Assembly (NCBI GenBank): GCA_002294185.1
Contig: DBFD01000079.1
Location: 1 to 52,697 of the forward strand
Length of the DNA: 52,697 bases
Source of the DNA: Paracoccus sp. UBA889
GTDB lineage: Bacteria; Pseudomonadota; Alphaproteobacteria; Rhodobacterales; Rhodobacteraceae
Reading direction: 5' to 3'
How positions within the stretch are numbered: position 1 is the stretch's first letter; each line of letters begins with the position of its first letter. Both the position numbers and the translations under genes were made by a program. Below the pieces are notes generated by a model, which ran no database searches, was not told the DNA's origin, and saw nothing but the letters and a program-made list of their open reading frames with translations. Shown piece by piece: positions 3-6,646 of this stretch.

Positions 3-728
3 CTGGCGTTCATGAAAATCATCGACCGGCAGTTCCTGGAAACGCCCTGGTACGGCTCGCGGCAGATGGCCCGCCACATGCAGCGTGAGGGGCACAGATG
101 CGGGCGCCACCGGGTGCGGCGGCTGATGAGGCTCATGCGTCTGGTGCCGATCTGCCAGGAGCCGAAAACCAGCAGGAAGCATCCGGCGCACGAGATTTGT
201 CCGGACTTGCTCCGGGACCTGCCCATCACCCGGCCAGATCAGGTCTGGTGTGTCGACATCAGCGCCATCCCGATGCGCCGTGGGTTCCTGTACCTCGTGG
301 CGATCATGGACTGGTTCAGCCGAAAGGTGCTCAGCTGGCGGCTGTCAAACTCCATGGAGGCCGGGTTCTGCGTCGAGGCGCTGACGGAGGCTCTGGCCAG
401 ATATGGGGAGCCGGAGATTTTCAATTCGGATCAGGGCGCGCAGTTCACCAGCACCGATTTCACCGACGTGCTGCACGACGCCAAGGTGAAGATCTCGATG
501 GACGGACGCGGCCGCTGGATCGACAACCGGATGATAGAGCGGCTCTGGCGGTCGTTGAAATACGAATGCGTCTACCTGAACGCCTGCGGGACCGGCTCTG
601 AAGCCCGTAACGGGATCGGCACCTGGATCAGCTGCTACAACGAAAGACGCCCGCACTCATCGCATGGGCTGATGACGCCAGGCGAGGCCTATGATACGCC
701 GCCCAAGACCCTGAAAGCCGCCGCCTGA
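3..728 (+). mobile_element. IS3-family transposase OrfB (5' end cut by window)
   Basis: DDE integrase-type transposase that catalyses strand transfer of an IS3-family element. The retroviral integrase core is visible: first Asp in VWCVDISAIPM, second Asp in FNSDQGAQFT, Glu in MIERLWRSLKYE, and the family tail CYNERRPHSSHGLMTPGEAY. The N-terminal HTH_21 part (QFLETPWYGSRQMARHMQ) is present. The frame stays open to the first base of the window, and IS3 OrfB is normally made by frameshifting from OrfA, so OrfA and the left inverted repeat lie outside the window. The usual ADITYIPM is here VDISAIPM, but the acidic triad is complete, so the protein could be active. Position 12 is only an internal Met. 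Confidence 0.93.
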
Positions 729-968: not shown

Positions 969-1244
969 AGACCTAGCTCACGGAGGGAGGCCGGATTGGT
1001 CGACCGCTGACAGAACGGGGCCGGTGCAGCATCCCACTGCCTCCGGCCACTTGGTCCCCTGACACGGGGTCCGGTGGCTGCCCCCGCTGTAATCCGTGAC
1101 AACCTGCGCCGCGCCCCCCGGAAGTATCGGAAGGGGACCGCGCCGTGACGGGGTTATGGCTACCCAAAAGCCGGGCACTCACCGTCTAATCCCAGATGCT
1201 TCGCGGGAACAGAAATCCGCAGGGCGCATCCCGGCCCTATGCCG
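969..1244. other. Region without recognisable gene
   Basis: These 276 bases lie between the gene remnant and the portal pseudogene. Short open frames exist on both strands but none has family character. On the minus strand, directly after the ancestral portal stop, a possible start gives only 16 codons (MRPADFCSREASGIRR) before a stop; this could be the wreck of the next head gene. I see no terminator or attachment site here. Confidence 0.4.
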
Positions 1245-2323
1245 TCAGTCCTGCCAGTCGATGAACGACTCGGCATCCTTGATCGTCGCCACGTCCAGGC
1301 CTGCCGCCTTGGCCTCGGCCAGCGCGCCCAGCATCGTCGCGAAAGCCCGCGCCTTGCTGCCAGCGTCGAAAGCTGCATCGGCCTCACGCAGTCGATTTTT
1401 ACGGCCAGCCCGATTTTTTCGCTGGCTTCCTCGGCCAGCAGGTTGGCGATCGGTTGCAGGACAAGCTGCGCCAGGTGCCGCTGGGCCTCGCGCACCATCG
1501 GCCCGGTCGTCGCCGGGTTCATCAGGCCGGGCAGAATGCCGAAGGTGCCGTAGATCGCGCCCTTGGCATCGGCCAACAGCTTGTCGGCCAGGGTCTTGTC
1601 CAGATGCGGGGAAAGCTGATCGGGGTGCTGGCCGATCTGGGGGTTCATGCCAGCCGCCGTCGCCTGCGCCGTTCCCTCGATCACCAGAGCCGCGCCGCGC
1701 CGCCCGCGAAAGCCTGCCCGAAGTTGCTCCATATCGTCGGCGCTGCCCTCGGGGACGGGGACGATCTGGCTGCCGAGGGGCGCATTCTTGAACACGTCGC
1801 GCAGGGCCGTTTCCAGTTCATGCAGAAGCTGTGCCGAGAGTTGCGCCCGCCGCAGGGGTGCCGAGCCTGCCCACGGGGTCGATGCGTCACAGCCGATGCG
1901 GAAATGCAGAACCTCAGGGGCCAGCACGGTTTCCCGCCGCCCACCGCCGATCTCGGGGATGCCGAGTCGATAGGCGCGGGGAATGCCGTTGCGGGTCGAT
2001 ACGTCCCAATCGGTCGCCGGAATAAGCCGGTCGCGGACCAGGAAGACACATTCGCCACGCAAGGCCAGAGCGCGGGCGATGATCGCCATCGTGCGCCGGT
2101 CCAGCAGATCGGTGCCGGTCACATCGGCCAGAGAAAGGCCACTTTCCCAGAGGCTCACAGAGGTTTGCACCGCCGCCGTGAGTTCGGCCATGCCGGACGC
2201 GCCGCTGATCCACGCTTCCCGCGCCGCCATGATCGAAGCGGTGTAGCCGGTGCCGGATGAACGGGTTTCAACGGGTGGTTGCCCGCCCCTTGATCCACGC
2301 CGGAACAGATCCAGGACGCCCAT
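1245..2323 (-). pseudogene. HK97-family phage portal protein, frameshifted near its C-terminus
   Basis: Portal proteins form the dodecameric DNA entry vertex of the capsid. The ATG at 2321-2323 has a good GGAGG upstream and overlaps the protease stop (TGATG). Family signatures include ARALALRGECVFLVRD, a GTFGILPGLM segment and REAQRHLAQLVLQPIANLL. After VKIDCVRPMQ (near 1373) the frame changes: the other frame continues as AFDAGSKARAFATMLGALAE and ends ESFIDWQD at a stop at 1245-1247, as expected for the family. One G missing from CAG-GCT-TTC explains it. In the present frame translation runs to about 1160 through an Arg/Trp-rich nonsense tail. Restored length is about 359 residues, slightly short for the family. 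Confidence 0.8.
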
Positions 2324-2877
2324 CAGAGCCTCCACCGATTCAGATGATGAACAGCGCCACGATAGGGCTGCCGGTCCTGATGGGTTTCCCAAGCCCGCGC
2401 CTCGATCTGGGCCGAGGAATAGGCGGGGCGGGTGACTGCCGAGAGTTCAAACAACGCCGCCGGGCTGATGGTCCGCAGGACGCTGTTGCCGCGCCGCTCG
2501 ATGCGTTCGCCGCCCAGATCGACACGGAAGCCCGGCGACAGGCCCCGGATCAGCCCGCCCGCGTGAGCCGCCAGAAAGTCACGCGCCCAGGTCGTGCCAT
2601 CCGCAATCGTCGCCTCGATCACCAGCGCGTCGTCGCCATCGGCCAGGGTGAGGTTGCCCGCCGCCCGCGAGGCAAGGGGTTTGTTGTAATCGTGACCGGA
2701 CAGCAGGTGGATATCCTCGCCCGCCTCGATCCGATCCGAGAATGCCCGAGAGGCGATAACCTCGCGCCGCCCCGGTGCCAGTTCGGTTTCGGCTCCATAG
2801 GGGAACGTCGCCCGAAGGCGGGTTGCCCCGCCCTCGCTGCGCAGTTCCAGCGCCCCGAGATTGCCGCCCCACAGCAT
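2323..2877 (-). CDS. HK97-family prohead protease
   Basis: Serine protease that processes the capsid during head maturation. The 184-residue protein has the expected core: a LLSGHDYNKPLASR segment with the likely catalytic His, the GNLTLADGDDALVIEATI strand pair, the LIRGLSPGFRVD segment with the likely catalytic Ser, and the tail FELSAVTRPAYSSAQIEAR. The ATG at 2875-2877 overlaps the ancestral capsid stop (TGATG), and its own stop overlaps the portal start the same way. The frame is intact, in contrast to both neighbours. The final residues (HQDRQPYRGAVHHLNRWRL) are Arg/His-rich and may reflect drift. Confidence 0.88.
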   Translation of the reverse strand: MLWGGNLGALELRSEGGATRLRATFPYGAETELAPGRREVIASRAFSDRIEAGEDIHLLSGHDYNKPLASRAAGNLTLADGDDALVIEATIADGTTWARDFLAAHAGGLIRGLSPGFRVDLGGERIERRGNSVLRTISPAALFELSAVTRPAYSSAQIEARAWETHQDRQPYRGAVHHLNRWRL

Positions 2878-4029
2878 CAGGGTTCACCGATGCCGGTCAG
2901 GATGCGGGTTTGCAAACCGCGCGGGACAGTGAAGTCCGCGGTGACAAGCCCGGTCAGGACCCTGCACGTTGGCCGTCATGATCGCCGTTTCACCGGGGAT
3001 CACGTTGCTGATCGCCGGGGTTCCGACATGCTTGGTCAGGCGGTCCCATTCGCTCACAGCCGTGCCGCTGATCAACGCATCATCCAGAGCCGCCCAGATC
3101 GCCGGGTCAAAGCCCAGGTTCACTTGGCTGGCCGAGGTGATCGCGTTGGCCTGCATGAAGGCCACGACTTCGGCGCGGAATGCCGCCCAGGTTGCCGTCG
3201 CGCCAACGGCAGTCTCGGTGATGCCGTAGGTCGCCGCGCCGGGGATGAAGCCCAGAGGCTCGCCCGCCGCGCCGCTGCCGTTGATCACAACCCGATCAAA
3301 TTCGGTGCCGAGCACCGCGTTCAGATCGCGCCGGATTGCAGCCTCCAGACCTTCGCCTGCCTGCTTCAGAGCCTTGCGGCTGATCACCATCTGCGCGCCG
3401 CCGGTATGATCGGGGTTCAGGATGCGCTCGGCGGTCTGATATTCCGAAGCCGCGCCGACATTGGCGAGTTCATTGGTCTGCCAGCCGAAGATCGCGCCCG
3501 CCGTGGCGACGGGAAAGGCCAGTTCGCCCGAGGTGATGTTGATGCGCTGGACGCCCAACCGCTCGGCAACGCTGCCGGGAAAGATCCGGTCGATGATCGG
3601 GCGGATCGTCTTGGGGTTCGGCACATCAACCGCGACAGTCTCGCCCGCGCGAGTTTCAAGCGCGGCGAAAGGAACAGGGATGCCCTGATAGCCGCCCGCG
3701 TTGCGCAGTTCCTCGACGATCTCTTTCGTCGCCCCGTTCAGCGCCCGGCCTTCATCGAGGGCGAAAGCCACCTGACGCAGCTCGAAGCGCCCGACCAGAT
3801 CGGACCATTCCCGGTCCGAACGGGTTTCCAGATCGGCCCCGGCCTCGCGCCGTTCCTGATCCTCGGCAGTCAGGGCCGCACGATAACGGGTTTCGTTGGT
3901 CCGATATTCCTGATCCATGTCGCTCATGGACCGCGTTTCGTCCTCGGTCGGCTTGTCCTTGCCCACCAGTTCCGCCAGCGCCTGCCGGATTTCCGACTGG
4001 CGACGGGCGATTTTCACAGAATCCAGCAT
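2877..4029 (-). pseudogene. HK97-family major capsid protein with C-terminal deletion and frameshift
   Basis: The product begins with a charged helical scaffold-like delta domain (residues about 1-75), followed by the HK97 fold with ELANVGAASEYQTAERILNP, QAGEGLEAAIRRDLNAVLG, INGSGAAGEPLGF and a late PAISNVIPGETAIMTANVQ. Near 2958-2966 the frame breaks: the present frame ends at 2884 in a nonsense tail. The other frame continues as VLTGLVTADFTVPRGLQTRI and stops at 2877-2879, overlapping the protease start. Between the two halves the WG..D.I.DPY segment that HK97-type capsids usually carry here is absent. I therefore infer a deletion of roughly 90 bases or more that also shifted the frame, rather than a single-base error. 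Confidence 0.82.
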
Positions 4030-4038
4030 GTCATTACC

Positions 4039-4368
4039 TCATGTTGCCGGGTTGGGATTTGTCGCCAGTTCGGCAACAGCTTTGCCCCAGGCTTGACGCT
4101 CGGGGGTGATGATCGGCGCGGAATGCCCGCACTCGATCCGGGTCTTTTTCGTGTGGCAGGACGGGCAGCGGGTCGCACAATTGGCCGGGTCGAAGCCCAG
4201 ATCGGGGCGCGTCCGCACCGGCTGGATATGGTCGATTTCCAGCCTGCCGCGCGTCTGCCCGCAATCGACGCAGGCCCAGCCGTCGCGTTCCAGAACGACA
4301 TGCCGCAGAACCTGCCAGCGCCGGGTTGAGGTCACGCGCTTTGAATGCCGGTGATACTGACGCATCAT
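4039..4368 (-). CDS. HNH endonuclease of the packaging module
   Basis: Small nuclease that typically sits beside the terminase in cos-packaging phages and satellites and is needed for cos cleavage. It has a complete zinc-HNH core: CVDCG, LEIDHIQPVRTRPDLGFDPA with the catalytic His and the Asn that follows, and CPSCHTKKT. Three Met codons (4374, 4368, 4365) are possible starts. I chose 4368 because it forms an ATGA overlap with the terminase stop (4365-4367), the coupling used throughout this module. About 109 residues. The gene shows no damage. Confidence 0.9.
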   Translation of the reverse strand: MMRQYHRHSKRVTSTRRWQVLRHVVLERDGWACVDCGQTRGRLEIDHIQPVRTRPDLGFDPANCATRCPSCHTKKTRIECGHSAPIITPERQAWGKAVAELATNPNPAT

Positions 4369-5519
4369 GCCCATGCGACCCTCGCTTTCCGCGTCGGAGC
4401 CGCCTTCATGCGCTGCCCCTGCGCGACGGCCAGCAGCGTTGCCGCAGCAGCGTCGATGCGGCCGAGGGATCGCGCCTTCGCCAGCTTGGCGTTGTTGGCC
4501 GGGTCATGCAGGACGATGGCATCGGAGAAAGCCGAGCGCAGCAGCAGCGACGGGGAAACCTTCACCTCGCCGTCGAACAGCGCCCGCCGAAAGCGTTCCA
4601 CGTCCTCGCTGCCGTCCTTCCATCCGAAGCCGCGCCAGATGAACGGGACGCGGGACAACCCGGCTTTCTCCATCGCCTCGACAAATTCGGCATGGCGGAA
4701 CCGGTCGCCCACGACACAGGCCACCTCGGCCCCGTCCAGTTGCCGCACGATCTCGGCCAGCCAAGGGCCGGGCGGAACGGTCGCATCGCCCATCGTGATC
4801 AGTTCGCCACGCTCGGCCATCTCGACATAGCGCCCCGACACGCTGTCAGCCGCGCCGCGATCCGCAAGGCCGGGATTGCTGGGGAAGGTGCCCAAGGCTT
4901 CCAGACACCCGGTTTCGGGCCAGTAGAGCGCCGCCGCCGACATGGACCGGCTGCCGCCAGGATCCACGCCGAGGATACAAGTCGACTTGCCGTCAGCCGC
5001 GATACAGCGCGCCAGCCCGCCGCCATTGCCGGAATATTCGACTTCCAGCTTGGAGCCGCGCCGGATCAGGAATTGCTCTTGTTCATCCTCGGGCAGCCCT
5101 TCGATGAAACCGACCAGAAACTGAAACGCGGTCTTGGCCTGATCGCGGTTCCGCGCAGCGAACAGGATCTCGCGTTTCGGCTGATCGTCCCAGACGCCCT
5201 TGAGCGCGCCGAGCGCCAGCCCGGCAGACAGAGCGGTCTTGGCGTTTCCGCGTCCGATTGACAGGCAGGCCACCATCACGCCGTCGCCCAGAGAGCCGCA
5301 AACGAATTGGCGCTTAAATCCGGCCAGCTTGAGCGGTTGACCGGCCATTTTCCCCTCCGGAATTTTCAGGGTTTCCAGAAATGCAATCGCCTGATCGGCC
5401 ATGTTTGGGGCCGGAAGAGAGAGCGCAACACTTAGGCGCCGGTCCCCCGCCCCGACCGATTTCCGGGCATTGGGACCAGATCCAGCCCGCGCTTTTGCCT
5501 TGACCGCCGTCGCCGTCAT
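4365..5519 (-). CDS. Terminase large subunit with internal deletion (no Walker B)
   Basis: Packaging ATPase/nuclease. The N-terminal ATPase half has the adenine/Walker A region (SIGRGNAKTALSAGLALGAL, residues about 87-106) and ILFAARNRDQAKTAF. The nuclease half starts at GVDPGGSRSMSAAALYWPET, continues through GDRFRHAEFVEAMEKAG and IWRGFGWKDGSEDVERFRRA, and ends KLAKARSLGRIDAAAATLLAV. Between them AARCIAADGK-type sequence joins directly to STCILGVDPGG, so the expected hydrophobic-DE Walker B, motif III and linker are missing. At 384 residues it is well over 100 shorter than usual. The joint (about 4978-4989) is a 12-base palindrome, CAAGTCGACTTG. The frame is kept, but packaging activity is very unlikely. 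The start overlaps the preceding gene (ATGA). Confidence 0.85.
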   Translation of the reverse strand: MTATAVKAKARAGSGPNARKSVGAGDRRLSVALSLPAPNMADQAIAFLETLKIPEGKMAGQPLKLAGFKRQFVCGSLGDGVMVACLSIGRGNAKTALSAGLALGALKGVWDDQPKREILFAARNRDQAKTAFQFLVGFIEGLPEDEQEQFLIRRGSKLEVEYSGNGGGLARCIAADGKSTCILGVDPGGSRSMSAAALYWPETGCLEALGTFPSNPGLADRGAADSVSGRYVEMAERGELITMGDATVPPGPWLAEIVRQLDGAEVACVVGDRFRHAEFVEAMEKAGLSRVPFIWRGFGWKDGSEDVERFRRALFDGEVKVSPSLLLRSAFSDAIVLHDPANNAKLAKARSLGRIDAAAATLLAVAQGQRMKAAPTRKARVAWA

Positions 5520-5760
5520 GGGGTCGCCTCGGGCTGGCAGGCACGGACGCCGCGATACCGGGCCACGATACGGGCCGCAGCCAGAGACAGGCCCACGGTC
5601 CGCTCGGTCTCGCCGCCTCGGGCATCTGGGCTTTCAGGTTCTCGATTTCGTGGCGATCCGTCCGCGCGCCAGCGGGCAGTTCGGCCACCAACTCATGCAA
5701 CCCGACCCAATCGTCCTCGAGCGCCTCGCGGGTCAACTTCGATGCGTCCTTGCAAATCAT
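5516..5760 (-). pseudogene. Small gene before terminase large subunit (terminase small subunit position), frameshifted
   Basis: Starts MICKDASKLTREALEDDWVG with an ATGA overlap to the gene upstream. The present frame runs past the terminase start into Arg/Pro-rich nonsense (to about 5314). At about 5616 the other frame gives GGETERTVGLSLAAARIVAR and ends at a stop that overlaps the terminase ATG. One G lost from a GGG (GAGGGCGGC to GAGGCGGC) accounts for it. The restored protein would be about 81 residues, mostly helical. Position suggests a terminase small subunit or an accessory packaging protein, but no HTH domain is recognisable and I do not assign a function. Confidence 0.6.
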
Positions 5761-5999
5761 GCGTCACCCCGATCGATCAGATCGAAGTCGTCGCAGCCGT
5801 CGAAGTCGCCGCGATGCTGGTAAACCTCATTCACCATGCGGTTCATCAGGGCGTGTTGCTTTGGGCTGGGTTGCCAGTTGCGGCGCTTGGACTGCCGCAT
5901 GATCGACAGAGCGAAGCCCTTGGCCCAGTCGTTCGATGCCGCCTTGCAGACGGTCGGCCATGACCAGAGCAATTCGTCCACGGAAAGCTGCCTATTCAT
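5757..5999 (-). CDS. Small packaging-module protein, unknown function
   Basis: 80 residues: a Trp-rich helical N-terminal half (LLWSWPTVCKAASNDWAKGF), a basic middle (MRQSKRRNWQPSPKQHALMNRMV) and an acidic tail (FDGCDDFDLIDRGDA). The WxPSPKQ..LM..MV pattern recalls short phage proteins with a DNA-contacting helix, but I recognise no named family. It overlaps the micro-ORF upstream by 8 bases and its stop overlaps the next start (ATGA), so it is an integral member of the same transcript. The frame is intact. Confidence 0.6.
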   Translation of the reverse strand: MNRQLSVDELLWSWPTVCKAASNDWAKGFALSIMRQSKRRNWQPSPKQHALMNRMVNEVYQHRGDFDGCDDFDLIDRGDA

Positions 6000-6093
6000 C
6001 GCCAGCCCCCCAGATGATCAGGGCCAGCGTGGCGGCTGTAGCGCCCCGGATGCCGTAGAGGGTGCCGAGGCGGGATGCGCGAATGGTGTTCAT
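5992..6093 (-). CDS. 33-residue hydrophobic micro-ORF
   Basis: ATG at 6091-6093 forms an ATGA overlap with the stop of the upstream gene, and its stop lies inside the next gene. The product is [20 protein letters not shown] followed by ATLALIIWGAGDE. The second half (ATLALIIWGA) could be a short membrane helix. No family is recognised; the evidence is position, the coupling pattern and the open frame. Confidence 0.45.
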   Translation of the reverse strand: MNTIRASRLGTLYGIRGATAATLALIIWGAGDE

Positions 6094-6515
6094 GCCGCCG
6101 CCCTCCGGTCGAGATGCCCGAGGAAGGCGGCTTGGTCTCGACCGTTCATCGCCTCACAGGCGGCGAGGGCATAGGCTTTTAGCTCGGCGCGGGTGGCCCA
6201 AACCGCCCATTCCCGAGCCTCGGCCATGATCGGCCCGAAACCGGTGGTCGGCTGCCCGGCGCGCATCACGTCGATGAACCGTTCCATCAGGGGAACGCGG
6301 TCGCGAGCGTCACAGGCAAACACGGCTTGGAGCAAGCCCCTTGCCGCAGATTCGCGTTTCAGGTTATTGTCGATCCAGTCTAGCCAGACTTCGTTATCCG
6401 CCCCGGTTGCGCCTGCCAGCGCGCCGGGGCTTTCGTTTTCCGGTGGAACGTCGCCAGAACACCGCGTGTCAATGACGTGCCAATCGCAATCGCACGTTCC
6501 CGTCCCGTTCTGCAT
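6090..6515 (-). CDS. First gene of the packaging module, unknown function
   Basis: From the Met at 6515 the protein has 141 residues. Its N-terminus contains several Cys ([17 protein letters not shown]), followed by a helical region ([20 protein letters not shown], then [15 protein letters not shown]) and a C-terminus [20 protein letters not shown]. The frame is open further upstream to 6779, but that would run through the serC leader on the opposite strand, so 6515 is preferred. No domain recognised. It is the most upstream gene seen in the module; no integrase, primase or regulator precedes it in this window. Confidence 0.5.
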
Positions 6516-6569
6516 CGACGCGCGCGAAGCTGCATGATCGGTTTTGCAAGACTCTTTGGCTATTGCGTT

Positions 6570-6646
6570 TTTTTGGGGGTTCTCGTAGAGGCGTCCGTGG
6601 GACACCCCTCCCCAACGAGGGGCTTTTAGCTGGAAGGCTGAGTCAC
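6570..6646 (+). ncRNA. serC leader RNA motif (candidate)
   Basis: The 5' UTR of serC matches what I know of the alphaproteobacterial serC RNA motif: a stretch AGGCGTCCGTGGGACAC, then a hairpin CCCCTC-CCCAAC-GAGGGG at 6605-6622, then a conserved-looking tail CTTTTAGCTGGAAGGCTGA ending at the start codon. The GGAAGG in the tail is the serC ribosome binding site, so a structure here could gate translation. The ligand, if any, is unknown. Assignment is from memory of the motif plus the visible hairpin; a covariance-model search would settle it. Confidence 0.65.

Follow-up and report, generated by a model that had tools for sequence, protein, structure and literature searches.

The DNA analysed here, positions 1 to 52,697 of contig DBFD01000079.1 of Paracoccus sp. 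UBA889 (hereafter the window), carries near its left end a minus-strand block of phage head and packaging genes. We consider it highly probable (roughly 0.88) that this block represents the packaging end of a capsid-forming phage satellite, integrated and now decayed. A satellite remnant in a Paracoccus-like host had been proposed in a preliminary description of the sequence; the genus is indeed Paracoccus, and the proposal is supported by intact relatives of about 10–11.4 kb that are tailless and bounded by repeats overlapping tRNA genes. The source genome is a 3.24-Mb draft in 79 contigs, in which the capsid gene has a copy number of 1.

Intact relatives and their borders

Relatives of the capsid were sought by alignment in GTDB genomes, which gave 205 stretches, and the best 80 of these 205 were analysed (the 80 loci). 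The hosts among the GTDB stretches are many Paracoccus, other Rhodobacterales, and Hyphomicrobiales (among them Chelatococcus, Hansschlegelia, and Aurantimonas), together with single records each from Hyphomonas, Ponticaulis, and Sphingobium. Capsid relatives occur in 32 of 125 Paracoccus genomes and in 54 IMG/VR contigs, 34 of which measure 9.0–12.8 kb (17 are shorter, and three are of 20.5–21.1 kb). They were also found in two plasmid records, a Pseudorhodobacter turbinis megaplasmid (61%) and an Acinetobacter plasmid (26%).

The capsid and protease genes are present in all 80 loci, the terminase large subunit (TerL) in 78, the HNH gene in 77, and the portal in 76. All five lie on the capsid strand in 73 loci, and in every one of these 73 they follow the order TerL-HNH-capsid-protease-portal. 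One of two integrase types was present in 52 of the 80. Exact repeats were sought beside the integrase and across the element in 25 loci; in 16, direct repeats of 15–55 bp enclose 9,970–11,364 bp, and all 16 border repeats overlap a tRNA gene (called by ARAGORN, with the overlap taken from coordinates). An intact island carries an integrase, regulators, a helicase/primase-like protein, a connector, TerL, HNH, capsid, protease, and portal, followed after the portal by a head-completion protein (in some), a structured RNA, variable small genes, and an integrase (in many).

In 13 repeat-bounded elements, 198 open reading frames (ORFs) were called by a script based on codon-position GC, not by a trained gene finder, and the 126 non-core ORFs of at least 50 aa were scanned. 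There was no tail or lysis family among the 20 Pfam families found in them, nor among the 25 listed of 57 PHROG families. Intact blocks of this kind are therefore not confined to full prophages with tail and lysis genes, as the repeat-bounded state of 16 of the 25 loci also indicates. The Pfam families include AAA_25, Arc, Phage_connect_1, Prim-Pol, Phage_HCP, Phage_attach, MerR, HTH, and toxin-antitoxin families. Connectors are represented by phrog_442 and PF05135, and head completion by PF05521, while the replication protein is seen as AAA_25 and helicase/primase PHROGs in 5–6 of the 126 ORFs and as Prim-Pol in two. Of the neighbours that the preliminary description had expected, the relatives thus have the integrase, a helicase/primase-like protein of the AAA_25 type, and regulators of the MerR type, whereas a true AlpA was not identified.

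The same elements bear on the alternative that the block is a defective ordinary prophage which lost its tail module and was never a satellite. Against 50,697 phage records, the window capsid gave no match at E ≤ 1e-5 and the portal gave none; the capsid of an intact relative had 12 matches at 24–27% identity (E ≤ 0.01, among the matches listed). TerL matched 229 phage records, the best of them, from HK97-group phages, with an identity of about 31% across 82% of the query. This likeness of TerL favours a prophage, as does the state of the window copy, damaged and cut by the contig end. A prophage origin is contradicted, however, by the intact repeat-bounded relatives, alike in size and in their tailless gene content, and by a capsid and a portal without a close phage relative, and we regard it as very unlikely. 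Domestication as a gene-transfer-agent-like head cluster would suit the hosts, since gene transfer agents are known in Alphaproteobacteria. It fits poorly with the patchy presence of the family (the 32 of 125 genomes given above), its integrase, tRNA borders, and circular forms, and its scattering over different tRNA genes. The gene order also appears to be unlike that of the gene transfer agent RcGTA, which is terminase, portal, protease, capsid. We consider this explanation extremely improbable.

Several points weigh against a capsid-forming satellite. The PHROG side of the check for tail and lysis genes covers 25 of 57 families, and the tape measure was sought in the 80 loci with a single reference protein. 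No small terminase family was recognised in the scans of the relatives, where some small genes have no assigned function, and the regulators are MerR-type (MerR_1 and HTH_17 in some relatives) or weak, with no AlpA family among the matches listed. Neither integrase type was matched in 28 of the 80 loci, some of which lie on truncated contigs, and no search was made for other recombinases. Six integrase-bearing loci gave no repeat, three of them being cut at the integrase (L040, L042, and L054) and three having an integrase yet no repeat (L075, L085, and L087); L076, L077, and L081 had neither an upstream or downstream integrase call nor a repeat. Finally, no helper, induction, or particle was seen. 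Because a small terminase and AlpA were not identified, the family is called only cfPICI-like, after the capsid-forming phage-inducible chromosomal islands (cfPICIs). Gene content, order, and borders support classing the relatives as cfPICI-like satellites, of which the window holds a relic beside serC.

For such a satellite we infer the following as the most likely cycle of induction, packaging, and tail borrowing. A helper phage would trigger excision and replication of the satellite. TerL, with HNH, would then package satellite DNA into heads built from the satellite's capsid, protease, and portal, which the satellite connectors would close. The heads would take helper tails and leave the cell through helper lysis.

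Three loci (L158, L159, and L160) hold compact blocks whose capsids are 27–32% identical and which have satellite-like integrase or connector genes; they possibly form a sister satellite group.

The packaging block in the window

The minus-strand order TerL, HNH, capsid, protease, portal, as first described, was confirmed with its coordinates by ORFs and by Pfam and PHROG profile matches, and the five proteins are 80–93% identical to those of relatives. TerL (4365–5519; phrog_9, 1.8e-31) has an in-frame internal deletion, so that it counts 384 aa, compared with 526–578 aa in eight intact relatives, and 158 alignment columns are missing. The HNH endonuclease (4039–4374; PF01844, 3.2e-9) and the prohead protease of the S78 family (2323–2877; PF04586, 2.2e-21) are intact. 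The major capsid gene (2877–4029, with an open frame from 4029 to 2884; PF05065, 3.7e-11) is broken in frame shortly before the 3' end, and its last 27 residues match relatives in another frame; the intact capsids of full-length relatives have 403–415 aa. A frame break near the 3' end is also found in the HK97-type portal gene (1245–2392; PF04860, 1e-7, below the curated cut-off), which is 81% identical to that of L075 over 2392–1373, the remainder matching in another frame. Its stop codon lies at 1245–1247, a position read by eye.

Upstream of TerL is the remnant of a head-tail connector gene (5540–5626; phrog_442 relatives), of which all but the last 29 residues are gone from the window. The small genes that had been placed on this side of TerL do belong to the element: both s8 (5757–5999; 77% to L026) and s7 (6090–6437; 66–69% to L077, L078, and L091) are small conserved satellite genes, on the minus strand like the rest, with matches in relatives. 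The overlapping starts and stops attributed to nearly all these genes were found at TerL/HNH, at protease/portal and, in the frame of the relatives, at capsid/protease, but there is none between HNH and capsid.

The metagenome contig L021 (3713 bp) corresponds to window positions 2623–6335 with nine mismatches and no gap (99.76% identity). Because this independent contig has it too, the damage to TerL and capsid is real and not an assembly or sequencing error; L021 stops short of the portal. The element in the window is dead, as TerL is without part of its ATPase/nuclease region, the capsid, portal, and connector genes are damaged, and the contig has neither an integrase nor a helicase.

On the left, an IS3-type transposase gene (rve, HTH_21; 3–728, plus strand) stands at the contig end and marks the point beyond which the left part of the element is missing or unassembled. 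Because the left edge is this contig end beside a transposase, the absence of tail genes from the window proves nothing by itself. In a search of the same genome for the other half of the element, two contigs that bear integrases (C16 and C37) showed no match to the satellite integrases. For window segment 1–1060, the only matches in that genome were weaker sites resembling transposases.

The right end of the relic is at 6438–6594, beside the host gene serC. In four genomes that lack the relic (G112, G076, G001, and G041), similarity to the window begins only at 6593–6599, past this edge. A further genome, G124 (L273), matches from 6172, keeping part of the same remnant beside serC. Because this related genome retains a fragment of the same satellite there, the insertion at serC may be old. 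A serC leader RNA (RF00517) lies at 6595–6646 on the plus strand, directly adjoining the relic.

Circular relatives

Four contigs carry a direct repeat of 56–144 bp at both ends and for this reason close to circles, of 9,970–10,340 bp. Two (L029 and L032) come from metagenomes, L170 is from P. binzhouensis, and L239 is from Gemmobacter serpentinus (contig name cov_941). No ORF in these four is hit by either integrase profile at E ≤ 10; nine integrated control loci each match at 1e-100 or better. The circles occupy three places in a tree of 112 capsids. A replication initiator is clear in L032 (phrog_391, 3.1e-13) and weak in L029, and the candidates in L170 and L239 are weak or of unknown kind. 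Together, the four integrase-less circles carrying the block suggest satellite-plasmids resembling the cf-PISPs of Vibrio; possibly they are instead excised islands that use another recombinase, or virion DNA.

These forms raise the question of whether the relic descends from a captured circle without an integrase and not from an integrated island. The presence of the same block on the four circles speaks for such an ancestor, and so does the lack of a satellite integrase on C16 and C37. On the other hand, the relic adjoins serC, with G124 matching from 6172 at the same place, and the lost half could have carried an integrase. A plasmid ancestor is in our view unlikely, and we keep to the integrated island.

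A conserved structured RNA next to the block

Directly 3' of the portal or connector gene lies a conserved stretch with no obvious coding capacity. In the window it holds a structured RNA of about 175 nt with two pseudoknots (1064–1241, minus strand), which begins 3 nt past the portal stop codon and scores 157.1 bits with model R1. In an alignment of 22 sequences (A2), a 42-pair structure with both pseudoknots had 87.4% of cells paired, compared with 36.7–45.3% when the structure was slid, and 73 double changes, compared with 23.4 in shuffles; the members of A2 were picked by a pattern in which the second pseudoknot has a fixed 3' side, and invariance there is partly built in.

Model R1 was built without pseudoknots and gave 77 matches, 69 of them distinct, from 96 chosen sources (alignment A6). 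In this alignment, the two pseudoknot helices alone were 94.0% paired, compared with 27.1–46.7% when slid, and showed 51 double changes, compared with 11.2 in shuffles, a count reached by none of 500 shuffles; for two weaker measures, 1 and 7 of the 500 shuffles reached the observed value. Taken as a whole, the structure was 89.8% paired, with 324 double changes, compared with 87.6 when shuffled. Shuffle controls can be inflated by relatedness, which slid controls preserve. RNAalifold paired the 5' hairpin differently and agreed on the second pseudoknot helix and two 3' hairpins. Helix 6 is weak, with 52–58% of cells paired and one pair that is mostly A-C.

The case for the RNA is its covariation: folded as a single sequence, window 980–1250 was not unusually stable on one strand or the other (z 0.23 and −0.26). 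Rfam yielded no overlapping family in the window (E ≤ 5), in six loci (E ≤ 1), or in twelve further loci (E ≤ 1), and the RNA may be new in itself. We do not favour the alternative that the stretch is a cos or pac DNA site. At paired positions, G-U exceeds A-C (195 versus 87, or 143 versus 45 when the two extreme pairs are left out), and an RNA of the capsid strand fits for this reason.

The RNA was present in 33 of 75 sources and, in a separate count, in 35 of the 80 loci. It lies on the capsid strand in all 32 loci checked besides the window and in all 35 of the second count. Of 125 Paracoccus genomes, 50 have the RNA, as do 23 of 394 genomes of a family sample. Because 24 of 32 genomes with the capsid have it, compared with 26 of 93 others (Fisher p 5e-6), the RNA is linked, but not limited, to the capsid satellite. 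One genome without a capsid match of the satellite family (G041) holds six copies (L125–L129).

A coding-like ORF ends near the RNA start in 42 of the 69 distinct copies, and in 30 of these 42 the stop codon stands at one of two offsets, eight bases apart, one three bases ahead of the RNA and the other inside its opening bases. The upstream gene varies: it is a portal in, for example, L250, L253, L254, and L257, a capsid of another family in L139 and L261, a TerL of phrog_15 in L259, and a neck protein in L141. In L132, the RNA comes after a small tail-chaperone-like gene that follows the tape measure. No such gene was seen upstream of the RNA in other copies, among them L251, L252, L256, and L260.

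The arrangement in L132 belongs to genome G017 (L145/L132), whose element of at least 16.6 kb has the integrase, s7, and a relative of the helicase (81%). It also has a portal, protease-capsid, HNH, two relatives of the major tail protein, a tail terminator, TerL, tape measure, and chaperone, and then the RNA. This element might be a larger satellite, but also a helper or a prophage. The same mixture, s7/helicase or RNA as in the satellites but with tail-tube and tape-measure genes and a different TerL, was observed in L147/L142 (G084), L133, and L131 as well.

On balance, we lean towards a new RNA class that serves tailless satellites and their kin, about 175 nt long and with a double pseudoknot, placed at the last morphogenesis stop codon and kept there across module exchange. 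The modules exchanged beside it, under the same joint proposal, would be HK97-type head blocks, TerL of the phrog_15 type, and tail-tube/tape-measure genes. A ribosome terminating at that stop codon would lie over the first helix of the RNA, and for this reason the RNA may link late translation with a subsequent step. As a guess, this step could be the fate of the mRNA, a released small RNA, or packaging. If the RNA acts in trans or in packaging, it would represent a satellite function for which we found no counterpart in Rfam or in a literature search on structured RNA and satellites.

Comparison with known systems

With HK97-group phages (HK022 and kin), the family shares the TerL similarity described above and HK97-type capsid and protease families. 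The usual HK97-type order is terminase-portal-protease-capsid; here the head order is reversed, and there is no tail or lysis module. Among the open-licence papers listed, we found no description of capsid-bearing satellites from Paracoccus or of cfPICIs from Rhodobacterales. The present data indicate that satellites with their own capsid are common in Paracoccus and extend to other Alphaproteobacteria, and they give precise element borders.

The closest described likeness is to the cfPICIs, satellites which, according to PMC10690885, produce heads and packaging enzymes themselves but rely on a helper for tails; PMC10448857 describes their signature genes, and PMC13230959 also gives their definition. 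As in those accounts, the elements are small and tailless and have their own capsid, protease, portal, connectors, TerL, HNH, integrase, and a putative replication protein. They differ in their alphaproteobacterial hosts, their AAA_25/primase-like replication protein, and their conserved 3' RNA. The likeness is drawn from published descriptions and gene content. The Streptomyces satellites MulchRoom and MiniFlayer likewise have their own head and packaging genes; according to PMC10690885, they are set apart in that they keep a scaffold and terminal repeats and have virulent helpers. The cf-PISPs are circles of 10–16 kb that carry a capsid-forming satellite block but no integrase and, according to PMC13230959, were found only in Vibrio. 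The four circles of 9,970–10,340 bp come instead from Paracoccus, Gemmobacter, and two metagenomes; one satellite family seems to have both island and plasmid forms.

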